Below the pieces are notes generated by a model. It was not told where the DNA came from. It saw nothing but the letters and a program-made list of their open reading frames with translations, and ran no database searches. From a virus: a stretch of DNA of 64,000 nt. The position numbers were made by a program, and so were the translations under genes. Every line of letters starts with the position of its first letter. Position 1 is the first letter of the stretch. Shown here one piece after another: positions 13,532-62,177 of the stretch. Location of the stretch: the IMG/VR virus record IMGVR_UViG_3300034103_001746, positions 85,533 through 149,532 of that record; one strand, written 5' to 3'.

Positions 13532-13559
13532 ATTATAGAAGGTCTCTGATCGGTGTCAA
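13532..13559 (-). promoter_or_regulatory. Perfect sigma-70 consensus promoter of ssb
   Basis: On the minus strand TTGACA (13554-13559) and TATAAT (13532-13537) are separated by exactly 16 bases, ending about 32 bases upstream of the ssb start codon, which has a good AAGGAG site. The -35 overlaps the stop of the polymerase C-half gene. Both hexamers match the bacterial consensus fully, so host RNA polymerase should use it early. Confidence 0.9.
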
Positions 13560-15181
13560 GATTTTGCGATGTAAGCCTTTTCCACTATGAGCGAATCCCC
13601 GGTCTTTGACCTATTACCTTTCACTATGATAACATTGCTTCCAAACAACAAGTTTCTATAGCTTCTGTATTGCTCTGGAAAAAATACAACAGAATCTAAC
13701 ACACCAGAACCATCTGTTAATGTTACAAATGCCATCTCTAAACCGGGATTCTTTCCTGTTTTGGTTTTGGTAACACTAATATTGTCTACCTCTCCACATA
13801 ATATGATATTATCTTTATTGAGACTATTTTTAAATTCTTTACAAGTTGTATTAGTCATACTAATATCATACATATCAACCTTGGAACACGTTATACTACA
13901 ACCGAGCGTTTCTTCCTCTGTATCCGCTATCCATTCTGGATTATCTTCTAAAGCATATGGAGGTCTCTTTAAAGTATTAAGTAAGTTTTGTACTACAGTT
14001 ACTCTGTTTTTATTGAGTTTGCCTATTTTCATTAATCCTATAAAAGCATCTTCTAAATTAGAATAAGAATATATATTTGTTAATATCGTTCCGATTTCTT
14101 TCTTTGTCAATTCATTTATTAAACTCAATTCAAACAACATAGAGTTTCTGGTCTTTTTTAAAAAAGACAAGGCCCCGCTCTGAATTAAAGATTTTGCTGC
14201 TGTAGAATTAATGTCTGATAGTATCATTAAAGCTGTTTGAATCCAGTTCAATTTATTTAAATCTATTTGCTTACTAGATATAATATTATTTAGTTTTTCA
14301 TATACAGCATTTCCAAATCCCTTGATATCTGTTAAGCCAAAATAAATTTGATTATTTTTTAAGATAAATAACTTGTTCAGATTACGAATGTCTGGGGTGC
14401 TAACAGTTATATCCATCTCGCTAGCATTTTGTACTAATTCTTTAATTTCTGCTTTTGGATCAATTTTATCTTTAGCAAATCGTAAATAAGATGCGAAAAA
14501 TATTTTTGGGAAATGCGATTTGGTATACGCTGATAAATATGCATTAATAGCATAGCTAACAGCATGTGACTTATTAAAAGAATATCTTTGAGACTTTTCA
14601 ATCCAACCAAAGATCTGCTCTGCCTCATCTTCTGTGACTAAATTTAGATTTTTAGCACCCAATAAAAATTTTGATTTAACTTTAGCCATTTCTTCTGGCT
14701 TTTTCTTTCCAATAGCTTTTCTTAACATATCGGCTTCTTGTAGATTAAAACCAGCGATAGTTTTAGCGATCTCCATCGCTTGTTCCTGATAAATCATTTC
14801 GCCATATGTTGTTTTCAAAATGGGTTCTAGAGATGGATGAAAATTATCTATAGTTTCTTGTCCATTTTTTTTATCTATATAGTGATTAGTCACACTCTTT
14901 CCATCACGTATAGCCTCTAAGCATCCGGGTCTAAGAATACTGATTAGGGCAGATAATTCTTCAATATTGGAAGGTTTTAATTTTTTAGCAATAGATCTTC
15001 CTAGTCTAGACTCCAACTGAAAACAACCTTTTGTGTTTCCATCAGATATTAAATCCCATGTTTTATAACATTCCAAATTGATAGTTTCAATACGGGGATC
15101 AAAGGACAATTTCATATCCTCTCCTTCGCCCGAAATAATATTAAAAGAACATCCGCACGGATATTGAAATTTTTTAGACAT
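13556..15181 (-). CDS. dnaE: DNA polymerase III alpha subunit, C-terminal half
   Basis: A 541-residue protein matching the fingers and C-terminal part of DnaE. Key segments are GCFQLESRLGR, ILRPGCLEA, YQEQAMEIAKTIAGF, MLRKAIGKKKPEEMAK and YSFNKSHAVSYA, then a helical region and an OB-fold near the end (VTVTKTKTGKN to VIIVKGN). The palm with the catalytic aspartates is in a separate gene (16050-17921), so the two halves must associate to work. The start has a short Cys motif (PCGCSF) I recall from other phage DnaE proteins. It overlaps the exonuclease gene by eight bases. No intein motifs are seen at the break. Confidence 0.92.
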   Translation of the reverse strand: MSKKFQYPCGCSFNIISGEGEDMKLSFDPRIETINLECYKTWDLISDGNTKGCFQLESRLGRSIAKKLKPSNIEELSALISILRPGCLEAIRDGKSVTNHYIDKKNGQETIDNFHPSLEPILKTTYGEMIYQEQAMEIAKTIAGFNLQEADMLRKAIGKKKPEEMAKVKSKFLLGAKNLNLVTEDEAEQIFGWIEKSQRYSFNKSHAVSYAINAYLSAYTKSHFPKIFFASYLRFAKDKIDPKAEIKELVQNASEMDITVSTPDIRNLNKLFILKNNQIYFGLTDIKGFGNAVYEKLNNIISSKQIDLNKLNWIQTALMILSDINSTAAKSLIQSGALSFLKKTRNSMLFELSLINELTKKEIGTILTNIYSYSNLEDAFIGLMKIGKLNKNRVTVVQNLLNTLKRPPYALEDNPEWIADTEEETLGCSITCSKVDMYDISMTNTTCKEFKNSLNKDNIILCGEVDNISVTKTKTGKNPGLEMAFVTLTDGSGVLDSVVFFPEQYRSYRNLLFGSNVIIVKGNRSKTGDSLIVEKAYIAKS

Positions 15182-16049: not shown

Positions 16050-17921
16050 TCACCTATCTCCTAGAATATCTTGAATTGTCATAATTTTATCCAACATTGC
16101 TACTCCTAATATATCAAATTTAATAATACCAATTGATTCTAAATCTTGCATTTCCATTCCCGCTATTAATTGCTTATTCTTAGAGTCATAAACCATTGGA
16201 CAGGCTTCGTTCAATGGTAATGCACTGATAGCAATACCGGCCGCGTGTTTGGATTGATTCGATTTAGTACCCTCTAATCTAATAGCTTGTTCGAAGCGTT
16301 TGGCAAGTGGTCCTTGTAGTTCATTTTTTTCATCAATAAAGCACCACTCTTTGAGTTTGTCCGGATTATTCTCCAAAGCCCATCTAATAATAGACGCTTC
16401 TCCGGTTTCTTCTTTCATTTCTTGTAAATCGTCTGCTATTTTGGCTTCGTCCGGAATATTTTTAGTAATTTTATTCATTTCATCAAAAGAAATATTGCCA
16501 TATACTCTTAATACGTCCTTCAAGGCTCCTCGACCCTTAATAGTATTAAATGTAATCATTTGAGAAACTTTATCGTGACCATATTTGTTTTTAATATATT
16601 CAATAATAGTTTCTCTCTTATTGATCGGTACGTCCACATCAATATCTGGCATGGATATATGGTCTTTTGAGTTACGACCAGCATTATAAAATCGATCAAA
16701 CATTAGATTATATTTCATCGGATCAATACTGGTAATACCAATAAGATAAGATACTAAACAACCGGCAGCACTACCTCTACCCGGACCCGGAAGCCAAGAG
16801 TTATGTCTTACATAGTTAACAATATCTTGTACTATCAAAAAGTAGCTACTAAGTCCAGCTCCTTGTAGAACTTCTAGTTCATATTTAATTCTATCTACAT
16901 ATTGTTGTTGATCGTCTTTATTAATAGTGTTTGCTATTTTGTCTCTCCAGCCATCTCTACACAGTTGTCTTAGATATTCGTCTGGATTATATCCATCAGG
17001 ACAAGCAAACGGAGGAAGCCTAGGCTTACTCAAAACATTATATTCTTCACACAAACCAGCAACAAAATTGGTATTTTCTATTTCTTCTTCTGTATGCAGA
17101 CTATTCATTTCTTCTTGTGACAACAAATGAAAGTTATCAGAAGTAAAAAAACAAGAAAGAGGAACTTCTTCGTCATTGCTAATTTTTCTACTAATTTCTG
17201 GAAATGTTGTCTTTAAATTGTTACACAGTAGGATTCTTTGGTCATTAGCATCTTCTTTACGACAATAATGAGCATCTGGTGTGCAAACCACTTTAGTATT
17301 AGTGAGTTTTCCCAATTCTCTGACCACACCGGTTAAATCTTTTTGGATCGGGGTGTTGTTCATATCCATTAACTGAGATTCTAAAAAGAAATTATCTTTA
17401 CCAAAGATATCTTTCAATATACCTATTTGCTCTAGTCCTACATTTTTCCAATCCTTAATTAATGCGTTATTTTGAACTATCTTGTCCGCTAATACAGAGC
17501 CTAAATGACCACAAATGCCTATAATGTCGCCATCGCAAAATCTAGCAACATGATCTAGACTTAATCTGGGTTTATGATAATAAAAATCTGGCCTATTAGA
17601 TTCAGACACCAACTGAATAAGTTTATTCCAACCCTTTAAGTTTTTTGCCAAAACAAGAAAATGACTTAAGTCTTTATTAGACTTGTCTTGTATTGTGGGG
17701 TCTTGATCACAAACATAAATCTCGCAACCTAGTATGGGTTTGATGCCCTTAGACTTCATTTCTGTATAAAACTTAATAGCCCCAGCTATATTTCCGTGAT
17801 CTGTTAAGGCACAAGCAGATGCCCCAATTTCTTGACATCTTTCTGATATTTGTGATGGTTTTGATAGTCCGTCCAACAAACTAAACATTGAGTGACAATG
17901 TAAAGGTATATAATTCCTCAT
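16050..17921 (-). CDS. dnaE: DNA polymerase III alpha subunit, N-terminal half (PHP and palm)
   Basis: A 623-residue protein. Residues 1-~270 are a PHP domain with metal-type residues (HCH at 8-10, TDHGN at 40-44, GCE at 65-67, DAH at 216-218), so phosphoesterase activity may be retained. The palm follows, with LPGPGRGSAAG and catalytic PDIDVD (Asp426, Asp428) and the third aspartate in KFDILGV (Asp603). The protein ends 20 residues later, where bacterial DnaE continues into the fingers. The remainder is encoded by 13556-15181. It starts within four bases of the nuclease gene upstream. Confidence 0.93.
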   Translation of the reverse strand: MRNYIPLHCHSMFSLLDGLSKPSQISERCQEIGASACALTDHGNIAGAIKFYTEMKSKGIKPILGCEIYVCDQDPTIQDKSNKDLSHFLVLAKNLKGWNKLIQLVSESNRPDFYYHKPRLSLDHVARFCDGDIIGICGHLGSVLADKIVQNNALIKDWKNVGLEQIGILKDIFGKDNFFLESQLMDMNNTPIQKDLTGVVRELGKLTNTKVVCTPDAHYCRKEDANDQRILLCNNLKTTFPEISRKISNDEEVPLSCFFTSDNFHLLSQEEMNSLHTEEEIENTNFVAGLCEEYNVLSKPRLPPFACPDGYNPDEYLRQLCRDGWRDKIANTINKDDQQQYVDRIKYELEVLQGAGLSSYFLIVQDIVNYVRHNSWLPGPGRGSAAGCLVSYLIGITSIDPMKYNLMFDRFYNAGRNSKDHISMPDIDVDVPINKRETIIEYIKNKYGHDKVSQMITFNTIKGRGALKDVLRVYGNISFDEMNKITKNIPDEAKIADDLQEMKEETGEASIIRWALENNPDKLKEWCFIDEKNELQGPLAKRFEQAIRLEGTKSNQSKHAAGIAISALPLNEACPMVYDSKNKQLIAGMEMQDLESIGIIKFDILGVAMLDKIMTIQDILGDR

Positions 17922-23045: not shown

Positions 23046-23445
23046 ATATTATTCTATTTTTCCATTGGTCAATATCTTCATGAAATGGTAACTCAATATA
23101 TTTAATATTATTAATATCGCACCATTCTTGTTTTTCTCTATCTCTTTTTTGTGCTTTTAAAAAGTTTAACATATTCGAGTGATAGAAAGCTATAAACTTA
23201 TAATGTTGTTCTCCATGAACCTCAAAACAAATCTTTTTTAATGGTAAGTAAAAGTCTAAATAAAGAATTTCATTTTTTCTAAGTTGTATCGGTACTTCTT
23301 CTAAGATTTGTAGTGTTGGATATGATTGACTAATTAAGTTTCTAGCATTTAGATGATATGATGATTTATTGGTTATTTTACCTTTAGACATGTTTCCAGT
23401 TAGTAGCCAATTATGATTATTTCCATCTAAATCTTTTATCAGCAT
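23026..23445 (-). CDS. Vsr/DUF559-like endonuclease
   Basis: A 139-residue single-domain nuclease candidate. LYLDFYLP, then CFEVHGEQHY, then YIELPFHE give the D...ExH...E/Q pattern of the EDxHD/Vsr-like PD-(D/E)XK superfamily. It has no DNA-binding accessory domain. Similar small nucleases are often encoded near recA in large phages. It overlaps RecA by seven bases and the helical protein by 20. A nicking or repair role at mismatches or branch points is possible. Confidence 0.75.
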   Translation of the reverse strand: MLIKDLDGNNHNWLLTGNMSKGKITNKSSYHLNARNLISQSYPTLQILEEVPIQLRKNEILYLDFYLPLKKICFEVHGEQHYKFIAFYHSNMLNFLKAQKRDREKQEWCDINNIKYIELPFHEDIDQWKNRIIYDNQKC

Positions 23446-24452
23446 TTTAGGCCCATTGTAACCTTAATATTTTTTACTAAATCTATATAAGCAGCCTCAT
23501 TATCATATAGATATTGACGTAATTTTTCTGTACCTTGAAACTTTGGTTTGTCTGGCAAAGAAGTCAAAGTATACCAGGCCCCACCTTTGTGAATAATACC
23601 CATATCAGATCCTAGTGTTATGGCTTCCATATATTTATCAACACCTTGTCCATATCTGATATAACTAGTAATATTGCCGCCTGGAGGACCAAGAGCGGAA
23701 CAAATAACTTGCCACTCAATTTCTTGTCCTATTTGTGTACTGTCCGCACTCAGAGTCCAAGGCTTGAATGTTTTTGCTCGTAACTTAATATCGGTTTGAT
23801 AAGCAATAGCCTGACCACTCTTCTCTTTAAATTCTGCACCATATCCTGTTGGATTTCCCATAAGATGAGTAATACCTATAACAATATTTTTATTAACAGG
23901 AATAACATTGGCAACTTTACGACAAAACTTAGCTAATAATTTAGCTCCGTCTGCTCTTTGCATTTTATCCATTTCACTAGTAATTTCAGCTTCGGTACAT
24001 AGTGCAGAATAGGAGTCTATGATTAGAACACATCCTGGTACTTCATTAATAATTTTTTCTGCTATTTGTAAGTATTCTTCAGCGTGTAGAATTTTTCCTT
24101 GCTGACTACCAATTACATGAAACTTATCTAGATTTAGTCCAGGTATACCTTCTAAGTCTCTTTTCTTTAGTCTACCTTCTATGTTTAGATAATACACCTC
24201 TCTGGTGTCTTTCAGATCTCCTTTATATTCTGCTCTTTGTGCTGTTGCTGCGAAGTCTAATGATGTTGTGGTTTTACCACACTTTGGCTGACCAGTTAAT
24301 ACTACAAAACTTCCTTCTGGTATTCCACCATTTAATACTATGTCTAACGACGGACTAACTGGAATAATAACGCTTTTTTTATCTACAATAGCATTGCCAT
24401 TAAGAATAATATCGTCGCCGAAATTTTTTGTTACATCTTCTTTAAGACTCAT
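23439..24452 (-). CDS. recA: RecA/UvsX-like recombinase
   Basis: A 337-residue protein with a Walker A of GQPKCGKTT (54-62) and Walker B-type VLIIDSYSAL. A long middle part with LAKFCRKVANVIPVNKNIVIGITHLM follows the RecA order. The usual MAW-like segment is changed and the C-terminus ends with a winged-helix-like segment. It should catalyse strand exchange in recombination-dependent replication. The gene overlaps both neighbours by 7-11 bases. Confidence 0.9.
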   Translation of the reverse strand: MSLKEDVTKNFGDDIILNGNAIVDKKSVIIPVSPSLDIVLNGGIPEGSFVVLTGQPKCGKTTTSLDFAATAQRAEYKGDLKDTREVYYLNIEGRLKKRDLEGIPGLNLDKFHVIGSQQGKILHAEEYLQIAEKIINEVPGCVLIIDSYSALCTEAEITSEMDKMQRADGAKLLAKFCRKVANVIPVNKNIVIGITHLMGNPTGYGAEFKEKSGQAIAYQTDIKLRAKTFKPWTLSADSTQIGQEIEWQVICSALGPPGGNITSYIRYGQGVDKYMEAITLGSDMGIIHKGGAWYTLTSLPDKPKFQGTEKLRQYLYDNEAAYIDLVKNIKVTMGLKC

Positions 24453-43949: not shown

Positions 43950-45407
43950 ATTTTTTTCCTTATTATAGTTGGATATTTATTATTACACCAAGTATGGTAA
44001 GATAAATATTGTGCTAATATTTTATAATAATTCTTCTAATGGTCCCATTTGATTCAAATCTTTAAGTCCAGGATCTGACATTCCAAACAAATCTCGTGGA
44101 GCGCCAGCTAGATGCAAAAATGTTAAGTACATATTAGCAATTGTTCTATGATTAGGTTGTCCATAGCCTGGATAATCTATATAACGTCCACTTTTTAATT
44201 TACCACCCATATCTCCAATTACTACCATCGGCCACTCCCAACACCGACTGTGATGAGCTTCAGCGGCATCACTTAGATAAACGATCACGGTGTTGTCGAG
44301 CATCGTACCGTCCCCTTCTTTTATTGCTTCAAGTTTCTTACATAACCCCGCAATCAGATCAAAATGGAAGTGACGTATCATATCGTACAACTCCAACTGT
44401 GACATTCCGTTCTCTCCGCCTCCGTGACCCATATGATGCTTGCCCATCTTGAGTCCAAGGCCAGAGAAATTAATATCAAAATCCTGTTCGCCAGCCGCCG
44501 ACGAGATTGTTACCACATTTGTTAATCCACTAATCAATGAGGCTGCTGCTATATCAAATTGAGCATCTAATCGGTCTGTTTCAATAACACTATTATATTT
44601 ATTATTTACTACTGGACCCTTTTCTCTTAAAGTATGTTTTATATCGTTTAGTTTGCTCTGTCTATTACTTAATGCTTCAAAAGTTTCTATATAGGCTGTT
44701 AATTGTTGTCGTTCTGGGCCAGCAAGATTAGCTTCTGCTATTTTTATATCATTTTTAAGAAAATCTAAAAGATTATTTTTTGCTATAAATTCTTGTTTTG
44801 CATTACCTTCGGCAATGCTTCCAAATAAATTATTATATGCTTGTTGTGGTTGACATATAATTGGCATTAATTTAGCTTTATCCCACGCCGAAATGCTATA
44901 TACCACATTATTGTCGAGTTTTTTAGAAATACCAAGTCCAACAAATGGGAAAATACTAGGAAGAGCTTTAGCAAGAGCGCAGTCGATAGTTTCGCTAATA
45001 GATGTTGCTCCTTTGCGACCTCCAGGCACAACTCCTAAAGCTCCATGATCATTAGAATGTCCACCTCCGCATACGCGACCAGATAATCCATTAACAATTG
45101 TTAATTTATTTTGCCATTTAGCTACTGGCTCTAGAGACATTGGTAGTTTTTTCCCTGTCAATGATATGTTAATAAGCTCTGGAGGACCATTAAAAGGTTC
45201 TTCTGGACGCTCAGGGCGTATAATGCCTTCTGGTGGCATTTGTTGAGGTTTTACTCCATTGCTTTCAACAACAAAAACAAATCGTTTTGCTGTAATTGGT
45301 AAACCAGCCGCTTCTGCTTTTAACTTATTAAGTATAGGATATAAAAACGTAGCTGCTGCTGATAAACCAAGAGCTTTAAGCGTGTTTCTGCGCTGTTCCA
45401 AAAACAT
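43841..45407 (-). other. See DUF1552 entry; region boundary note
   Basis: This span includes the 5' part of the 70-residue gene, a 72-base gap (43950-44021) with AACTATAAT, and the DUF1552 gene. The gap shows no hairpin terminator on the minus strand; transcription of DUF1552 could run into the small gene. Confidence 0.3.
44022..45407 (-). CDS. DUF1552 protein with Tat signal
   Basis: A 461-residue protein. RRNTLKALGLSAAATFLYP (Arg6-Arg7) is a twin-arginine export signal. The body follows DUF1552: FVFVVESNGV, LTIVNGLSG, GGGHSNDHGALG, TIDCALAK, LDAQFDIAAASL, and the C-terminal IVYLSDAAEAHHSRC and MVVIGDMGGKLKSGRY. DUF1552 is abundant in Planctomycetota and a few other phyla, linked with secreted or cell-wall proteins, function unsettled. 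A full-length, exported copy in a phage is unusual and suggests capture from the host. Confidence 0.92.
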   Translation of the reverse strand: MFLEQRRNTLKALGLSAAATFLYPILNKLKAEAAGLPITAKRFVFVVESNGVKPQQMPPEGIIRPERPEEPFNGPPELINISLTGKKLPMSLEPVAKWQNKLTIVNGLSGRVCGGGHSNDHGALGVVPGGRKGATSISETIDCALAKALPSIFPFVGLGISKKLDNNVVYSISAWDKAKLMPIICQPQQAYNNLFGSIAEGNAKQEFIAKNNLLDFLKNDIKIAEANLAGPERQQLTAYIETFEALSNRQSKLNDIKHTLREKGPVVNNKYNSVIETDRLDAQFDIAAASLISGLTNVVTISSAAGEQDFDINFSGLGLKMGKHHMGHGGGENGMSQLELYDMIRHFHFDLIAGLCKKLEAIKEGDGTMLDNTVIVYLSDAAEAHHSRCWEWPMVVIGDMGGKLKSGRYIDYPGYGQPNHRTIANMYLTFLHLAGAPRDLFGMSDPGLKDLNQMGPLEELL

Positions 45408-56465: not shown

Positions 56466-57215
56466 CTATTCTTTATTGAACTCAATGTTTTCTATAATCC
56501 ACTTTTTATACATACTAATTCTAGTGTGACCTGCTTCGTCTCCGTAAGTTGAGTCTGGTTTTTTATCCTCTGCTATAACACATGAGTTAATACCAGCTAA
56601 TTTGTTTCCTATAAATAGGCCACCCCCACTATCTCCACTAGATATTAAAAATTCTAAAGCTGTTTTTTTATTGTTGACAGATGGCGAACATATTAATAAA
56701 TGTCTATCAATAGAATCAATTCTATTTGATCCTGCTCTTTGTTGTGTATCGGATTTGTTGGCCCCAGTATTAAAATTACCATGTAACCCAAATCCAGATA
56801 TAGAACACACCTTGCCTATCTCGTCATCTTTATCATATAGTTCGGGATAAAATTTTAATCCAATATCATCATCACACCAACCAATAGCAATATCATATAT
56901 TCCAAAATTCTGTTCATTAAAATCTTTGTGCGTAATAATTTTAGATACAGATATTTTTTTACTATTAATGTTTAAGGTGCATGTTTTAGAGCCTGCAACA
57001 ACGTGTGCTGCTGTAACTATCCATCTTGGTTTTATAGCCACAGCAGATGCACAATATGCTTTTTTATCTTCTGTTTGACCACAAAGTTTACCTACATAAA
57101 CAAAATTTTTAGCATATTCTATGTATCTTGAATCTGGAGTAGCTGGGTCTATAGTTCCGGCTAGTAAAATTGAGCTAAATAATGATACTATGAAAAATAA
57201 AATTAAATGTTTCAT
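56466..57215 (-). CDS. Exported trypsin-like serine protease
   Basis: A 249-residue S1-family protease with a signal peptide (LILFFIVSLFSSILLAG). The triad is complete: WIVTAAHVVAG (His71), GIYDIAIG (Asp108) and SSGDSGGGLF (Ser196). Several Cys may form disulfides. It may act in the periplasm or outside the cell on host envelope proteins. TATAAATA lies ~65 bases upstream. Exported S1 proteases are uncommon in phages. Confidence 0.9.
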   Translation of the reverse strand: MKHLILFFIVSLFSSILLAGTIDPATPDSRYIEYAKNFVYVGKLCGQTEDKKAYCASAVAIKPRWIVTAAHVVAGSKTCTLNINSKKISVSKIITHKDFNEQNFGIYDIAIGWCDDDIGLKFYPELYDKDDEIGKVCSISGFGLHGNFNTGANKSDTQQRAGSNRIDSIDRHLLICSPSVNNKKTALEFLISSGDSGGGLFIGNKLAGINSCVIAEDKKPDSTYGDEAGHTRISMYKKWIIENIEFNKE

Positions 57216-57406: not shown

Positions 57407-58414
57407 TTACGATAATACTTTAGATGCTATTAAACAACCTTTAGAAACAGCATGTAAAGGATCTTCTGCGTGTCTTACTTCTTTTATATTTAGTGGAAAA
57501 CTATTTTCTTCTAATTTTTTACGAAATAAATCTATGTATCCATCTGCCTGCGAAGTGCCGCCCGCCACAACAATAGATAGAGGATTTTTAAATTTGGGTA
57601 AAGCTTTATGTAATGTTAATGCTGAAGCTAATTGTTTAGTAGTATAATCTATTAGTCTATCATAGTATGCTGATACCGCAGCAAGCACCGGATTATCGTT
57701 CGGTTCGCCTATTTTAAAATTACCCGCCTCCTTCTCTGCCTGAACAACACTGTCCTGTTCTCCGGTCGCTACAGCACTCATACGATCAATCCAATCGCCA
57801 GATTTGGTCGTACTAAATACAACTGTTGGTTCGCCATTGAGCATAACACAAACATTAGTCATTCCAGCACCACAGCTAACTGCTATTCCTGTATAATCAT
57901 CATTCTCTAATTCAGCATAGCATAATGCTTCTGCTTCATTCACAGATCTAGCATCATAACCACATTCTGATAGAATGGTTTTAACCACATCCTCATGATA
58001 TCCAACATCAAAATCTTCATCTTCTTGATCTACTGGTTGTGCTGGAACACAAAAAACAAGTTTTTCACCGGGTTCCGATGCCTGCCCGACTACTTCTTTT
58101 AAGATAAATGCTAAAATTCTTTTTGCATTTTTTTCTTTTGCTGATACGACACCCTTATGCATCGGTCTTTTTGCTGTGTCGTTTCTTTCTATGGCTTTTT
58201 CTATAGCGTCCTTACCCAATAATATAAAAGAATTATCTGACTCATCTTTTATAAAAACTTTTCCTGATAAGCCTTTTTCTATCATTTTTGTGGCTACGGG
58301 TGTTGTTGGCTTAATTATATAGAAGGCATCTCTAAAGTCTTTATAGATAACGCCGCTCTGAGAATCTTCTGATAGAACAATGAAACTTGTTCCAACGTCT
58401 AAACCTTTAGCCAT
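57407..58414 (-). CDS. Actin-fold (ParM/MreB/Hsp70-like) ATPase
   Basis: A 335-residue protein with phosphate-1 loop GLDVGTSF (4-11), a phosphate-2-like SCGAGMTNV (180-188) and adenosine-loop VVAGGTSQADG near residue 285. The usual Asp of phosphate-2 (DxG) is Ser180, so ATP hydrolysis may be altered. SGDWIDRM follows, as in related actin-like proteins. It may form filaments for genome positioning or partition. It is followed by a membrane protein and an exported thioredoxin upstream. Confidence 0.83.
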   Translation of the reverse strand: MAKGLDVGTSFIVLSEDSQSGVIYKDFRDAFYIIKPTTPVATKMIEKGLSGKVFIKDESDNSFILLGKDAIEKAIERNDTAKRPMHKGVVSAKEKNAKRILAFILKEVVGQASEPGEKLVFCVPAQPVDQEDEDFDVGYHEDVVKTILSECGYDARSVNEAEALCYAELENDDYTGIAVSCGAGMTNVCVMLNGEPTVVFSTTKSGDWIDRMSAVATGEQDSVVQAEKEAGNFKIGEPNDNPVLAAVSAYYDRLIDYTTKQLASALTLHKALPKFKNPLSIVVAGGTSQADGYIDLFRKKLEENSFPLNIKEVRHAEDPLHAVSKGCLIASKVLS

Positions 58415-58416
58415 AA

Positions 58417-58719
58417 TTACCCTTTCATATTTTTAAGCTTATTAATAGCCGAATCAATCTTTTCTGTTGACTCTTTCTTTTCTCCTAGTTGGGTATATTT
58501 TTTTTCCAAACCATCCGTATCAATATTGGTAACATATTTTTTGTCATCAATATTAATTTGTGTAGCAGTAAGTGTATTCTGGTCAAAAAAAGATTTCGGC
58601 TTAGTATTATATACACCATTATTTTGGCCTATTTTTGCCAAAACATATCCCATAAAGAAGAATAGGATATTTGTTAATATCAGAATACAAATAATAATAT
58701 TACTTGTGTTGTCTAGCAT
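58417..58719 (-). CDS. Small membrane protein before the actin-like gene
   Basis: A 100-residue protein with an N-terminal membrane helix (IIICILILTNILFFFMGYVLA) and a polar, Lys/Asp-rich C-terminal region. It starts two bases after the actin-like gene's upstream boundary and overlaps the thioredoxin gene by 20 bases. It may anchor the actin-like filament, inferred from context only. Confidence 0.65.
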   Translation of the reverse strand: MLDNTSNIIICILILTNILFFFMGYVLAKIGQNNGVYNTKPKSFFDQNTLTATQINIDDKKYVTNIDTDGLEKKYTQLGEKKESTEKIDSAINKLKNMKG

Positions 58720-59101
58720 CGTTTATCCATGTTAAATATTTGACCTTACCCTTATATCCAACATAGATTGATACTTCAACTTTATCTTTTATGATCCTTG
58801 AGTCTGGCAAACTTTTAACTCCATATTCTTTAGCAAGATCTTTATCTTTGTCTATATCTATAGAACATACAATGAAATCATCTAATGCTTTGGCAGCATC
58901 TTCATCCTCTAAATCTTTATGAAGAACACCACAGTATCGACACCAATCTGCCCCGAATATTACTAGCACAGGTTTCTTTGAAGATTCTGATAATGCAATA
59001 GCATCTACCAGATTATTCATGAAATATGCGTTTTCTCCATAAGCCCTATCGCTAATCATGCCTAGCATAATGACAAATAGTAATAGGGTTTTCTTTATCA
59101 T
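58700..59101 (-). CDS. Exported thioredoxin-like protein
   Basis: A 133-residue protein with a signal peptide (LLLFVIMLGMISDRAYG), the active-site WCRYC (Trp53-Cys57) and the cis-Pro region KSLPDSRI. It should be a periplasmic disulfide oxidoreductase. Several phage proteins here are Cys-rich, so a role in their folding is plausible. It overlaps ruvB by four bases. Confidence 0.88.
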   Translation of the reverse strand: MIKKTLLLFVIMLGMISDRAYGENAYFMNNLVDAIALSESSKKPVLVIFGADWCRYCGVLHKDLEDEDAAKALDDFIVCSIDIDKDKDLAKEYGVKSLPDSRIIKDKVEVSIYVGYKGKVKYLTWINDARQHK

Positions 59102-59994
59102 ATGTCACCAATGACTCTACCTTGAGACGTTCTTCGTGCAAAACCTTTTCTAACGAGATAGGGTTCGATGCTATTCTCAATGGTATCTATAGCGATTCCG
59201 GTCATGGACGATATAGACTTAAGACCTAAAGCACTTCCTCTCGACTTCTTTAATACACTAATATACATTCTATCATATATATCTAGACCATTTTTATCTA
59301 TACCTTGAATATTAAAGATCTTATCAATATCATTTTCTTCTGGATGACAAGACTTATAATTTCTATACCATTGAAGTCTCGCGTTAAGAATACGCGGAGT
59401 TCCTTTGCTTCTTTTTGCTATTTCCAATAGATCATCTTCTGAAACAATTAGTCCCAACTTCTCGGCGTTTGACCCTGCTAGTTTAGCAAGTTCATCGTCT
59501 TGATAAAAGGACAGATGCTCTTTAATTTGAAAACGGTCATAAAATGGCTGACTTAATGATCCACCACTAGTTGTTGCTCCCACAACAGTAAACATTGGTA
59601 GATCTATTGTTTCTGGCTTATCTTCTACACTTATACTGAGAACAAAATCTTCCATAACTGGATATAGAAATTCTTCCACTAACTTTGGTAGTCTATGGAT
59701 TTCATCAATAAATAATACTGATCTTGGAGCTATGCTCATTAAATATGGCAATATACTCTTAACATTACGAATATTAGCCGCATTAGTGGTATATAAATTA
59801 ACGTTAAGTTCGTTTGCTATAGCACTCGCTATTGTTGTTTTACCAAGGCCGGGAGGCCCGTCAATTAAAACATGGGGCATCACCGCCTCTGTGTTTTTAC
59901 ACCCGGTCACAGAGACTCTCAGACGCTCTATAACGTCACTTTGGCCGATCACATCATCAAAGGTGGTAGGTCGCAAGTTGTTTTTCATAATCAT
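59098..59994 (-). CDS. ruvB: RuvB-like Holliday junction helicase
   Basis: A 298-residue AAA+ motor: GPPGLGKTT (46-54), FIDEIHRL (Asp97/Glu98 Walker B), GATTSGGSLSQPFYDRF (sensor and arginine-finger region) and a winged-helix C-terminus with GLKSISSMTG and EPYLVRKGFARRTSQGR. It is shorter than bacterial RuvB (~330-340). It should drive branch migration in phage recombination. The neighbouring gene supplies a RuvA domain III-like partner. Confidence 0.92.
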   Translation of the reverse strand: MIMKNNLRPTTFDDVIGQSDVIERLRVSVTGCKNTEAVMPHVLIDGPPGLGKTTIASAIANELNVNLYTTNAANIRNVKSILPYLMSIAPRSVLFIDEIHRLPKLVEEFLYPVMEDFVLSISVEDKPETIDLPMFTVVGATTSGGSLSQPFYDRFQIKEHLSFYQDDELAKLAGSNAEKLGLIVSEDDLLEIAKRSKGTPRILNARLQWYRNYKSCHPEENDIDKIFNIQGIDKNGLDIYDRMYISVLKKSRGSALGLKSISSMTGIAIDTIENSIEPYLVRKGFARRTSQGRVIGDI

Positions 59995-60419
59995 CCTCCA
60001 AATAGTACAAGTGTATTTTTTACCAATTTACCACAATCTAGTTCTGGATTCTTAGAGTAGCTATCTTTTAGTAGTTTCTCGGCTTCGTCTTTGTCAAATC
60101 CATATCCAACTAAAATTTTGATCGATTTTTCTAATAGATAAGAAGGAATTGATTTATCGTCATTATCTATAGCAGATGACTTTGTGACCTCTTTTCTCTT
60201 TGTAGTTTTTGAGACTGAAGAAGCATAAGTGATCTTTATTGTCTTGATTCTTTTGGGTTTGAATACTAGCGCACAATCACATACAACCTTAAAATTTTTT
60301 GTTTGGGTTTCTTTTAAGGATAACCAATGATGATATCCACAATCTTTATTTGGACAAGCATACTTAATATGCAAATCAATATCAATCGGTTTCTGGTTTT
60401 TCAGCGTTTTTGTTTTCAT
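59991..60419 (-). CDS. Zinc ribbon plus RuvA domain III-like protein
   Basis: A 142-residue protein. Residues ~20-50 hold a zinc ribbon (ACPNKDC, VVCDCA). A linker (60-90) leads to a three-helix end (92-141: PSYLLEKSIKILVGYGF, DEAEKLLKDSY) resembling the mobile domain III of RuvA, the part that touches RuvB. It overlaps ruvB by four bases. The OB-fold and HhH parts of RuvA are absent. It may recruit or regulate RuvB by a zinc-ribbon DNA contact. Confidence 0.78.
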   Translation of the reverse strand: MKTKTLKNQKPIDIDLHIKYACPNKDCGYHHWLSLKETQTKNFKVVCDCALVFKPKRIKTIKITYASSVSKTTKRKEVTKSSAIDNDDKSIPSYLLEKSIKILVGYGFDKDEAEKLLKDSYSKNPELDCGKLVKNTLVLFGG

Positions 60420-60804
60420 CTTTTATCCAAAATACAAAATCGTTTGAGTTTTCATCAAATGCTGTTTCTACCAAGCCCTTATTTACTAGAGTATTTAGTA
60501 AATTACTAATCATTCTGTCATTAAGGGACTGAATCATATCGAAATATATTATATCAGAAACTAAATATCTAGTCTCATTGGTTTTTTTATTTTTTTGTTT
60601 TTTTAATAAACTTTTAGCTATAATCATTGATTCATCATGAGATAAGATGCTATTAAATTCGTCTTCATCTTCTGGTTTAATATCGTCTAATAAATTATCT
60701 ATCTCATTATTTTCATCACTATGTCCAAAATTATTGAATACCATAGCTCTTGTTTTATCAACAAATTCACCTATATTTTTAATCACATACCATTCTTCAT
60801 TCAT
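60382..60804 (-). CDS. Hypothetical protein with winged-helix-like end
   Basis: A 140-residue protein. The C-terminal half (SDIIYFDMIQSLNDRMISNLL, then TLVNKGLVETAFDE) has the look of a winged helix; the first half is acidic. It overlaps the RuvA-III gene by 38 bases. A DNA-binding adapter for RuvB is possible; no motif confirms it. Confidence 0.6.
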   Translation of the reverse strand: MNEEWYVIKNIGEFVDKTRAMVFNNFGHSDENNEIDNLLDDIKPEDEDEFNSILSHDESMIIAKSLLKKQKNKKTNETRYLVSDIIYFDMIQSLNDRMISNLLNTLVNKGLVETAFDENSNDFVFWIKDENKNAEKPETD

Positions 60805-61316: not shown

Positions 61317-62177
61317 TCAATACTGATCGTCGTAATCCTCGTCATCATAATCTACATCTTCAGACTCATCATCAAACTGATCCCAGTATGATTCATCAAG
61401 ATCATAATTATCTTCATCATAATCTTCATCTTCATCGTAACTAAAATCAGATGAATACAGAGGCTTGAGCAATTCGCCTTGATACTCTCCGACTACTTCA
61501 TATCGGCAAGTACGAAGTTTCTCACAATTACAATCACTTGGAACACTTACAACATCACGCGGATTAATCTTGACAATCACAATACGGTCGCCAGATTCTA
61601 CAGACCCATAACCGGCCACATAATTCAATGCTCCAGCATGAAGTCCATCAGAGCATCCTCTTGCACGATCATCGTCAACTTTTGCTCGCTGCATTTTAAC
61701 AACTTGACCAACACTATTATCAAACGTTCCACGATACTTATCCTTAAAATCACCCCTAACTGCCTTATAGGCCAGAAAGTGACCATCCTCAGTAATTGGC
61801 AGATGTTCATGCTCAAGGAAATCATAAAGTTCCTTCTGACTCTGCATACTAGGATTTTCCATAAGATTATGAAGGAAATTAGTAAGAGGCTGAAAAGGTA
61901 GACCCTTACTCATAAACTCCAGAATACGCTTGCTAATACTACCATGAACAACTTCACCCTCATAAGTAACCTGACCATTCTTGATTTCAACAAGACCATC
62001 ACTAAATGTAGCAATAGCCTTTTCCACATCAACAATTTCTAGCAACTCATCAGCGGTTGCTGTTGGCAAACGCTCAACAATCATCTTGTAATTGATATGA
62101 TCTGGCAAAACCTGGTAACTCTTGTTATTAAGAACAAGCGTCAAATTACCATCAACAAACATAAACGGAACAGACAT
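61317..62177 (-). CDS. rIIB: rIIB-like protein
   Basis: A 286-residue protein with the rIIB pattern: HLPITEDGHFLAYKAVRGDFKD, a later DDDRARGCSDGLHAGALNYV and IVIVKINPRDVVSVPSDCNCEKLRTCRYEVVG (shown in parts). The end is a long Asp/Glu/Tyr-rich tail (DEDEDYDEDNYD). Together with rIIA it is a T4-type membrane-associated pair linked to phage exclusion and growth control. It lies 32 bases from rIIA. Confidence 0.86.
   Translation of the reverse strand: MSVPFMFVDGNLTLVLNNKSYQVLPDHINYKMIVERLPTATADELLEIVDVEKAIATFSDGLVEIKNGQVTYEGEVVHGSISKRILEFMSKGLPFQPLTNFLHNLMENPSMQSQKELYDFLEHEHLPITEDGHFLAYKAVRGDFKDKYRGTFDNSVGQVVKMQRAKVDDDRARGCSDGLHAGALNYVAGYGSVESGDRIVIVKINPRDVVSVPSDCNCEKLRTCRYEVVGEYQGELLKPLYSSDFSYDEDEDYDEDNYDLDESYWDQFDDESEDVDYDDEDYDDQY

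Follow-up and report, generated by a model that had tools for sequence, protein, structure and literature searches.

Bacterial RuvB is taken to junctions by RuvA, and domain III of RuvA gates the ATP cycle of the motor (PMC9477746). The locus considered here encodes RuvB in a phage with no visible RuvA, and the question it raises is what, if anything, performs the functions of RuvA for this motor. We analyzed the locus in a window of 64,000 nucleotides (the whole stretch of DNA under study), which is the end of a 149.5-kb virus record, itself a fragment.

The phage ruvB gene and its genomic setting

The product of the gene at positions 59098–59994 (minus strand, 298 aa) is RuvB. Its AAA+ large domain with the P-loop (RuvB_N, 3.7e-47), lid (AAA_lid_4, 5.2e-9), and C-terminal winged helix (RuvB_C, 4.5e-16) are all matched by Pfam over the cut-off and follow in canonical order, and the nearest solved structures are RuvB proteins (5.5e-64). 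The Lys and Thr of Walker A, Asp and Glu of Walker B, the Arg finger, and the sensor-2 Arg are present in 65/65 compared phage rows. The C-terminal DNA-contact positions in these rows hold Arg (62) or Lys (3) at position 288, Lys (63) or Gln (2) at position 291, and Arg (64) or a gap (1) at position 293. The predicted activity is ATP-driven branch migration of Holliday junctions.

Directly upstream lies the gene of a 142-aa protein, P142 (59991–60419, minus strand), composed of a predicted zinc ribbon, a linker, and a RuvA-domain-III-like domain. Both open reading frames are located where the first-pass annotation had placed them, and the P142 stop and the ruvB start share the four bases ATGA (59991–59994, minus strand), an overlap that suggests translational coupling. 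The start of P142 is in turn overlapped by the gene of a 140-aa winged-helix-like protein, wH (60382–60804, minus strand), a constant upstream neighbor.

The gene content around the pair is T4-like, with rIIA, rIIB (61317–62177, minus strand; phrog_609, 1.2e-73), a split DNA polymerase, and a DnaB-like helicase; a primase, a UvsX-like recombinase (23439–24452, minus strand; phrog_97, 7.8e-38), and exonuclease subunits are also encoded in this phage. The polymerase occupies two genes (13556–15181 and 16050–17921, minus strand) matching successive parts of phrog_405. Several other minus-strand genes of the window deserve mention: a thioredoxin-like protein (58700–59101; PF00085, 1.1e-12), whose gene has a four-base overlap with ruvB and whose N-terminus is signal-like by eye; an actin-like protein (57407–58414), the fourth gene after P142, with a full-length Pfam match to Volactin (4.5e-63), a type of actin relative unusual for a phage; a trypsin-like serine protease (56466–57215; PF00089, 3.1e-16), again with an N-terminus that is signal-like by eye; and an HXXSHH/DUF1552 protein (44022–45407; 4.2e-38) from a family of unknown function.

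A search of IMG/VR with RuvB yielded 219 relatives, of which the best 80, at 73–85% identity, were kept. Among 50,697 named phage records, 82 have a RuvB match, all below 60% identity, and the 33 matches with 80% coverage are about 36–41% identical. The RuvB proteins of bacterial loci (best 80 of 126) show about 35–41% identity to the phage protein. The bacterial set contains two closer matches, in a Flavobacteriales MAG (L101, 70%) and a Chitinophagia MAG (L102, partial, 78%). Both encode P142, and an rIIB-like sequence is visible by eye upstream in L101. The two have the look of phage contigs assigned to Bacteroidota in binning, a weak hint at Bacteroidota as hosts. In the tree, to which a long-branch warning applies, a fully supported branch parts 66 phage RuvB rows from seven bacterial rows; the mutual identity within the phage clade is 66% or more.

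The first-pass annotation counted a complete RuvA elsewhere in the genome against its reading; none was found in the records searched. The 149.5-kb record, a fragment, has no match to RuvA_N, RuvA_C, or RuvC (RuvC was searched in this record only). RuvA_N (PF01330) is matched in none of 21 phage records (our own and 20 relatives, all possibly fragments), P142 included; the same search matched in 10 of 14 control genomes. Across 12 whole records, our own and 11 relatives, the sole RuvA_C match lies inside the P142 of one relative (7.1e-4, under the cut-off). As the records may be fragments, the absence of RuvA and RuvC is not proof.

UvsW is the branch-migration helicase of T4. A single-protein search for it, run with no control, was empty, hence the profile phrog_16 was used; it matched none of 12 phage records (G000–G011), and the T4 control scored 2.3e-125. 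Endonuclease VII is encoded in 8 of the 12 records, our own being among those without it. In four relatives (G002, G007, G008, and G009) it lies about 10–16 kb upstream of P142, and in G003 about 24 kb upstream, so that the equivalent position of the window falls beyond the contig end. With UvsW undetected and endonuclease VII present, the phage RuvB may replace UvsW.

Domain composition of P142

It had been suggested from the sequence that the C-terminal three-helix segment of P142 resembles RuvA domain III, and that a zinc ribbon stands in place of the OB-fold and HhH parts. Taken alone, the P142 sequence of the window matches no Pfam family; the resemblance emerges when relatives are included. 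Among PDB sequences, the P142-family profile picks out 11 rows at E <= 10, seven of them RuvA, with the best match to RuvA domain III (1ixs_A, 6.7e-4; positions 79–130 aligned); next comes a designed repeat protein (0.0021), no stretch of which passes alone. Comparison by hhalign with 68 bacterial RuvA places the C-terminus of P142 onto the RuvA C-terminus (Prob 86, P 4.9e-6). The RuvA_C model of Pfam, the check proposed along with the original suggestion, matches 8 of 40 P142 members at E <= 10, the best at 0.0077, a weaker resemblance than those by profile and fold. When the C-terminal profile was run against 873 ORFs near bacterial ruvB, a set fetched through RuvB and hence RuvA-rich, the 30 matches at E <= 0.1 were 27 RuvA, one truncated RuvA (by eye), and two P142; at E <= 1, the 48 matches are 43 RuvA, a further two truncated RuvA (by eye), two P142, and one other.

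Structure comparison points the same way. The AlphaFold2 model of P142 has pLDDT 85.7 and pTM 0.43, with residues 79–86 below 50. The first 24 rows of a Foldseek search of PDB are all RuvA, although with weak E-values (0.12–0.98). VIA, whose matches span residues 86–142 only, lists RuvA in its first 13 rows (Z 6.6–8.2, rmsd 1.4–2.3 over 46–51 residues), Z of about 7–8 being middling for a small helical domain according to the tool's note. In the viral fold library no match reaches E <= 0.001, and no RuvA-like name is found among the 50 matches listed. The structural match to RuvA domain III, on which the suggested likeness depended, was thus obtained, and we assign the domain to residues 92–142 (59994–60146, minus strand; model residues 90–142 in VIA).

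RuvA is followed in the VIA list by UBA domains (Z up to 5.5) and the C-terminus of TnsC (5.2). It is conceivable, if highly improbable, that the C-terminal domain is a UBA-like three-helix bundle with another ligand and that its likeness to RuvA is convergent. The rank of the UBA domains and the lack of any Pfam match for the window sequence agree with such an origin; however, RuvA leads both the profile and the fold lists, ruvB adjoins P142 in 74 of 76 loci, and the RuvA-docking surface of RuvB covaries with P142 (see below). As for TnsC of Tn7, another AAA+ DNA protein, its C-terminus resembles residues 90–141 of the P142 model, which may be chance.

The plan of P142 is similar to the end of RuvA, where a flexible linker is followed by domain III; in E. 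coli RuvA, the substitutions L167A and L170A abolish RuvB activity and keep junction binding (both points from PMC2628435). The equivalent positions of P142, given the aligned ranges (profile 82–127 to E. coli 156–199) and assuming no gap, are L103 (Leu in 34 and Met in 6 of 40 relatives) and Y106 (Tyr in 36, Leu in 4), both strongly conserved.

The N-terminal part is different. Its putative zinc-ribbon region (residues 17–60; 60240–60371, minus strand) carries C22, C27, C47, and C49, which are Cys in 40/40 non-redundant relatives and form two knuckle pairs, C-x2/4-C and C-x-C (C-x2-C in L018 and L026); zinc binding is predicted from this pattern. P11, W32, and G107 are also among the invariant positions. 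The region is well modelled (pLDDT block means 92–97 over residues 11–60). The N-terminal part is basic, with a median net charge of +7 (range 2 to 14), and the C-terminal part is about neutral; the linker between them varies from 9 to 59 residues among relatives. Matches of the 40 members to Pfam and PHROGs families are weak and scattered, and give the ribbon no known family. In named phages, P142 matches only two rows, tail sheath proteins at E 7, and a second P142 none. As to the junction-binding parts of RuvA, the P142 model has only strands and one five-residue helix before residue 92, and no HhH family is found among the matches listed (25 of 46 Pfam families) for the 40 members. Together with the absence of RuvA_N and the four constant Cys, this agrees with the suggested replacement of the OB and HhH parts.

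Co-occurrence of P142 with ruvB and the docking surface of RuvB

In the search with P142 (best 80 of 127 loci, the 76 newly fetched being counted), ruvB is the next gene on the same strand in 74 of 76 loci, with stop-to-stop frames from -73 to +4 bases, and the other two loci end there. In the search with wH (best 80 of 342 loci, 74 new), ruvB follows in 71 of 74, the other three again ending there, and 22 of these 71 have no P142. In the first set, where some loci share contigs, P142 is seen in 80 of 95 viral loci and wH in 95 of 95, both also in the window. Hence, in this sample, P142 does not occur without ruvB where the sequence allows a judgement, and ruvB does occur without P142. Within the stretches fetched, P142 is missing from 15 loci among the best 80 RuvB loci, all keeping RuvB and wH, the latter directly before ruvB; it is also absent from 6 of 20 whole records searched, three of them of 153–187 kb. 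Its presence or absence changes about 12 times on the RuvB tree. These absences imply that not every such RuvB needs P142, which seems to be an accessory partner and not an obligate loader.

The P142-less loci yielded no hidden domain III or ribbon (best matches E 0.93 and 1.6, nothing usable), and no P142–RuvB fusion exists among the RuvB ORFs, which are about 870 to 950 bp long. The catalytic residues are kept in 13 of 13 P142-less RuvB. The conserved EKPETD tail of wH (60382–60419, minus strand) overlaps the P142 start; three P142-less loci (L024, L056, and L060) retain this tail, which would fit a recent loss of P142. At L074:4060-4469, the wH gene is matched in two different frames, as if split.

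The constancy of wH, which accompanies RuvB also where P142 is missing, could mean that wH is the true partner bringing RuvB to DNA, with P142 only a regulator and RuvB perhaps serving a purpose other than branch migration, e.g., in replication or transcription. We regard this as improbable. The gene order in the first set and in 71 of the 74 new loci speaks for it, but neither sequence nor fold gives wH a role: Pfam matches are scattered (HTH_56 in 14 of 49, best 5.4e-4; DsrD in 10, best 1e-4), the AlphaFold2 model (pLDDT 83.5) is SarA/MarR-like at best (Foldseek E 0.08), VIA finds no chain at Z >= 5, and the search of named phages returned no wH. Moreover, the phage RuvB retains the catalytic positions of a branch-migration RuvB and almost all of its C-terminal positions for DNA contact.

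Bacterial RuvB binds domain III of RuvA via the presensor-1 beta-hairpin and the helix before Walker B. If P142 docks at the hairpin, its loss should free the residues there. The RuvA-binding hairpin of E. coli is L135–L152 (PMC2628435), with which residues 119–132 of the phage RuvB (59599–59640, minus strand) align. Residues 75–88 (59731–59772, minus strand), a helix lying between the Walker A and B motifs, make up the second part of the surface; this helix is putatively alpha3, because the Glu127–Asp130 motif is placed on alpha4 by Wald et al. (2022).

A first ranking of sites over 65 rows singled out the hairpin. For the larger scan, full RuvB sequences with a visible upstream gene (199 from loci with P142 and 33 from loci lacking it, repeated contigs included, after 17 loci whose RuvB was partial had been set aside) were reduced to 107 distinct ones, and then at 95% to 82, of which 64 have P142 and 18 do not. 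Each site was scored by how unusual the residues of P142-less rows are against those of P142-bearing rows. The hairpin (119–132) ranks first among 282 segments, with a mean of 0.97, compared with 0.04 for the rest (one-sided rank test, 0.0019; with one row per clade, 0.0065). When one clade at a time is left out, it keeps the first place in 12 of 13 runs and is second to an overlapping segment in the other. The second non-overlapping segment is residues 73–86, in the putative alpha3. Hydrophobic residues at both positions 121 and 123 are found in 59 of 64 P142-bearing and 7 of 18 P142-less rows (Fisher test, 6e-6, without kinship correction, at sites chosen after looking); the pair is thus kept in some rows lacking P142 and missing from 5 of the 64 that have it.

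The presence and absence of P142 were also simulated along the tree, a quick, midpoint-rooted one. None of 500 such histories attains the hairpin value; under three rate settings, 1, 0, and 2 per 1000 do. Under the same settings, the helix value is reached in 15, 3, and 22 per 1000, and both together in 1, 0, and 4. Some 14-residue segment or other does equally well in 13 of 500 simulations, and none of 300 random draws of 18 P142-bearing rows attains the hairpin value. The same scan of the wH core gives nothing (266/500 simulations); residues 127–140 of the wH tail do differ with the P142 state (mean 0.93), in part trivially, since the tail overlaps the P142 start. Well-supported branches provide only three independent pairs, for which a sign test is powerless (median p 1).

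The RuvB surface for domain III thus tends to decay where P142 is absent. Because the residues particular to P142-less rows are concentrated in the hairpin and the helix, P142 very probably binds the phage RuvB in the manner of RuvA domain III, a contact predicted from sequence covariation. Of the 65 phage rows, 60 have a hairpin stretch of 18 residues and the other five one of 23–24, against 22 in 71 of 71 bacterial rows, so the bacterial contact cannot be transferred position by position; the phage RuvB and P142 seem mutually adapted rather than fitted to host RuvA. Host RuvA was considered as the partner and is less likely, since the docking surface should then persist without P142.

The loss of the surface agrees equally well with another reading, a main rival although we think it unlikely, in which P142 is a shield or decoy: its domain III would occupy the hairpin against host RuvA, or would block host RuvB, and phages without P142 would mutate the hairpin. 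Fewer hydrophobic hairpin residues are indeed seen where P142 is absent, and a domain III that lacks the junction-binding parts would naturally compete. Host RuvA, however, may not fit the shortened hairpin in the first place, and a conserved basic zinc ribbon would be needless for a decoy.

Proposed role of P142 and comparison with known systems

We consider it probable on balance that P142 is a RuvB adaptor, combining domain-III-like docking with zinc-ribbon anchoring, for a phage RuvB active in recombination-dependent replication. The domain-III-like part would dock on the surface used by RuvA, formed by the hairpin together with the helix preceding Walker B. The basic zinc ribbon, at the end of a variable linker, would hold another ligand, the likeliest candidates being DNA (branched or single-stranded) and a phage recombination protein. 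In this way P142 may tie the motor to its substrate, provide the nucleotide exchange and ATPase stimulation of domain III, or do both, without a junction-clamping tetramer. RuvB would then drive branch migration in the place of UvsW, together with UvsX and, where present, endonuclease VII. Docking, DNA binding, and loading by P142 are all predictions. The first-pass idea of a minimal phage loader for RuvB stands in part: the domain-III-like part without OB and HhH domains, the lack of RuvA_N in the 21 records, and the decay of the docking surface support it, but the absence of P142 from 15 of 80 loci does not fit a loader that is always needed.

A broader proposal, plausible yet held with less assurance, is a RuvA-free branch-migration machine in which RuvB works either with the zinc-ribbon/domain III adaptor or with no domain III partner, the clamp of RuvA and the control by domain III being separable. 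The P142-less motors keep their catalytic residues and often lose the surface for domain III, which suggests that they can run without such a partner. If true, a motor of this kind can evolve independence from domain III. The phages look like a natural dissection of RuvA, with domain III kept and the junction-binding parts replaced in some, and with domain III and the hydrophobic docking surface lost in their sisters. The RuvA functions that the motor needs thereby become directly testable, and the system is a candidate for the replacement of UvsW in uncultured T4-like phages.

RuvB and domain III are individually known; their combination in a phage group without visible RuvA is new as far as our searches of the open PMC literature go, in which no description of a domain III adaptor for a phage RuvB came up. 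The "RuvB helicase-like protein" of PaBG is a 221-kDa virion band (PMC7412058), a different thing.

Among known systems, T4 UvsW presumably shares with the phage RuvB a role in T4-like recombination-dependent replication, but it is an unrelated SF2 helicase, matched in 0 of the 12 records. Phage resolvases of the RuvC type and endonuclease VII also process junctions in large phages, by cutting them. The phage RuvB is like bacterial RuvB (PF05496/PF17864/PF05491) in its three domains, catalytic residues, and C-terminal DNA-contact Arg and Lys; it differs in identity (at most about 41%), in the hairpin stretch (18 instead of 22 residues in 60/65), and in forming its own clade. P142 resembles bacterial RuvA (domain III, PF07499) in its C-terminal three-helix domain, of the RuvB-docking type and placed behind a linker, in an L-x-x-[LY]-G-[FY] core, and in a gene position just before ruvB; unlike RuvA, it lacks OB domain I (PF01330), is too short to accommodate HhH domain II, carries a putative zinc ribbon instead, and would not be expected to form a junction-clamping tetramer.
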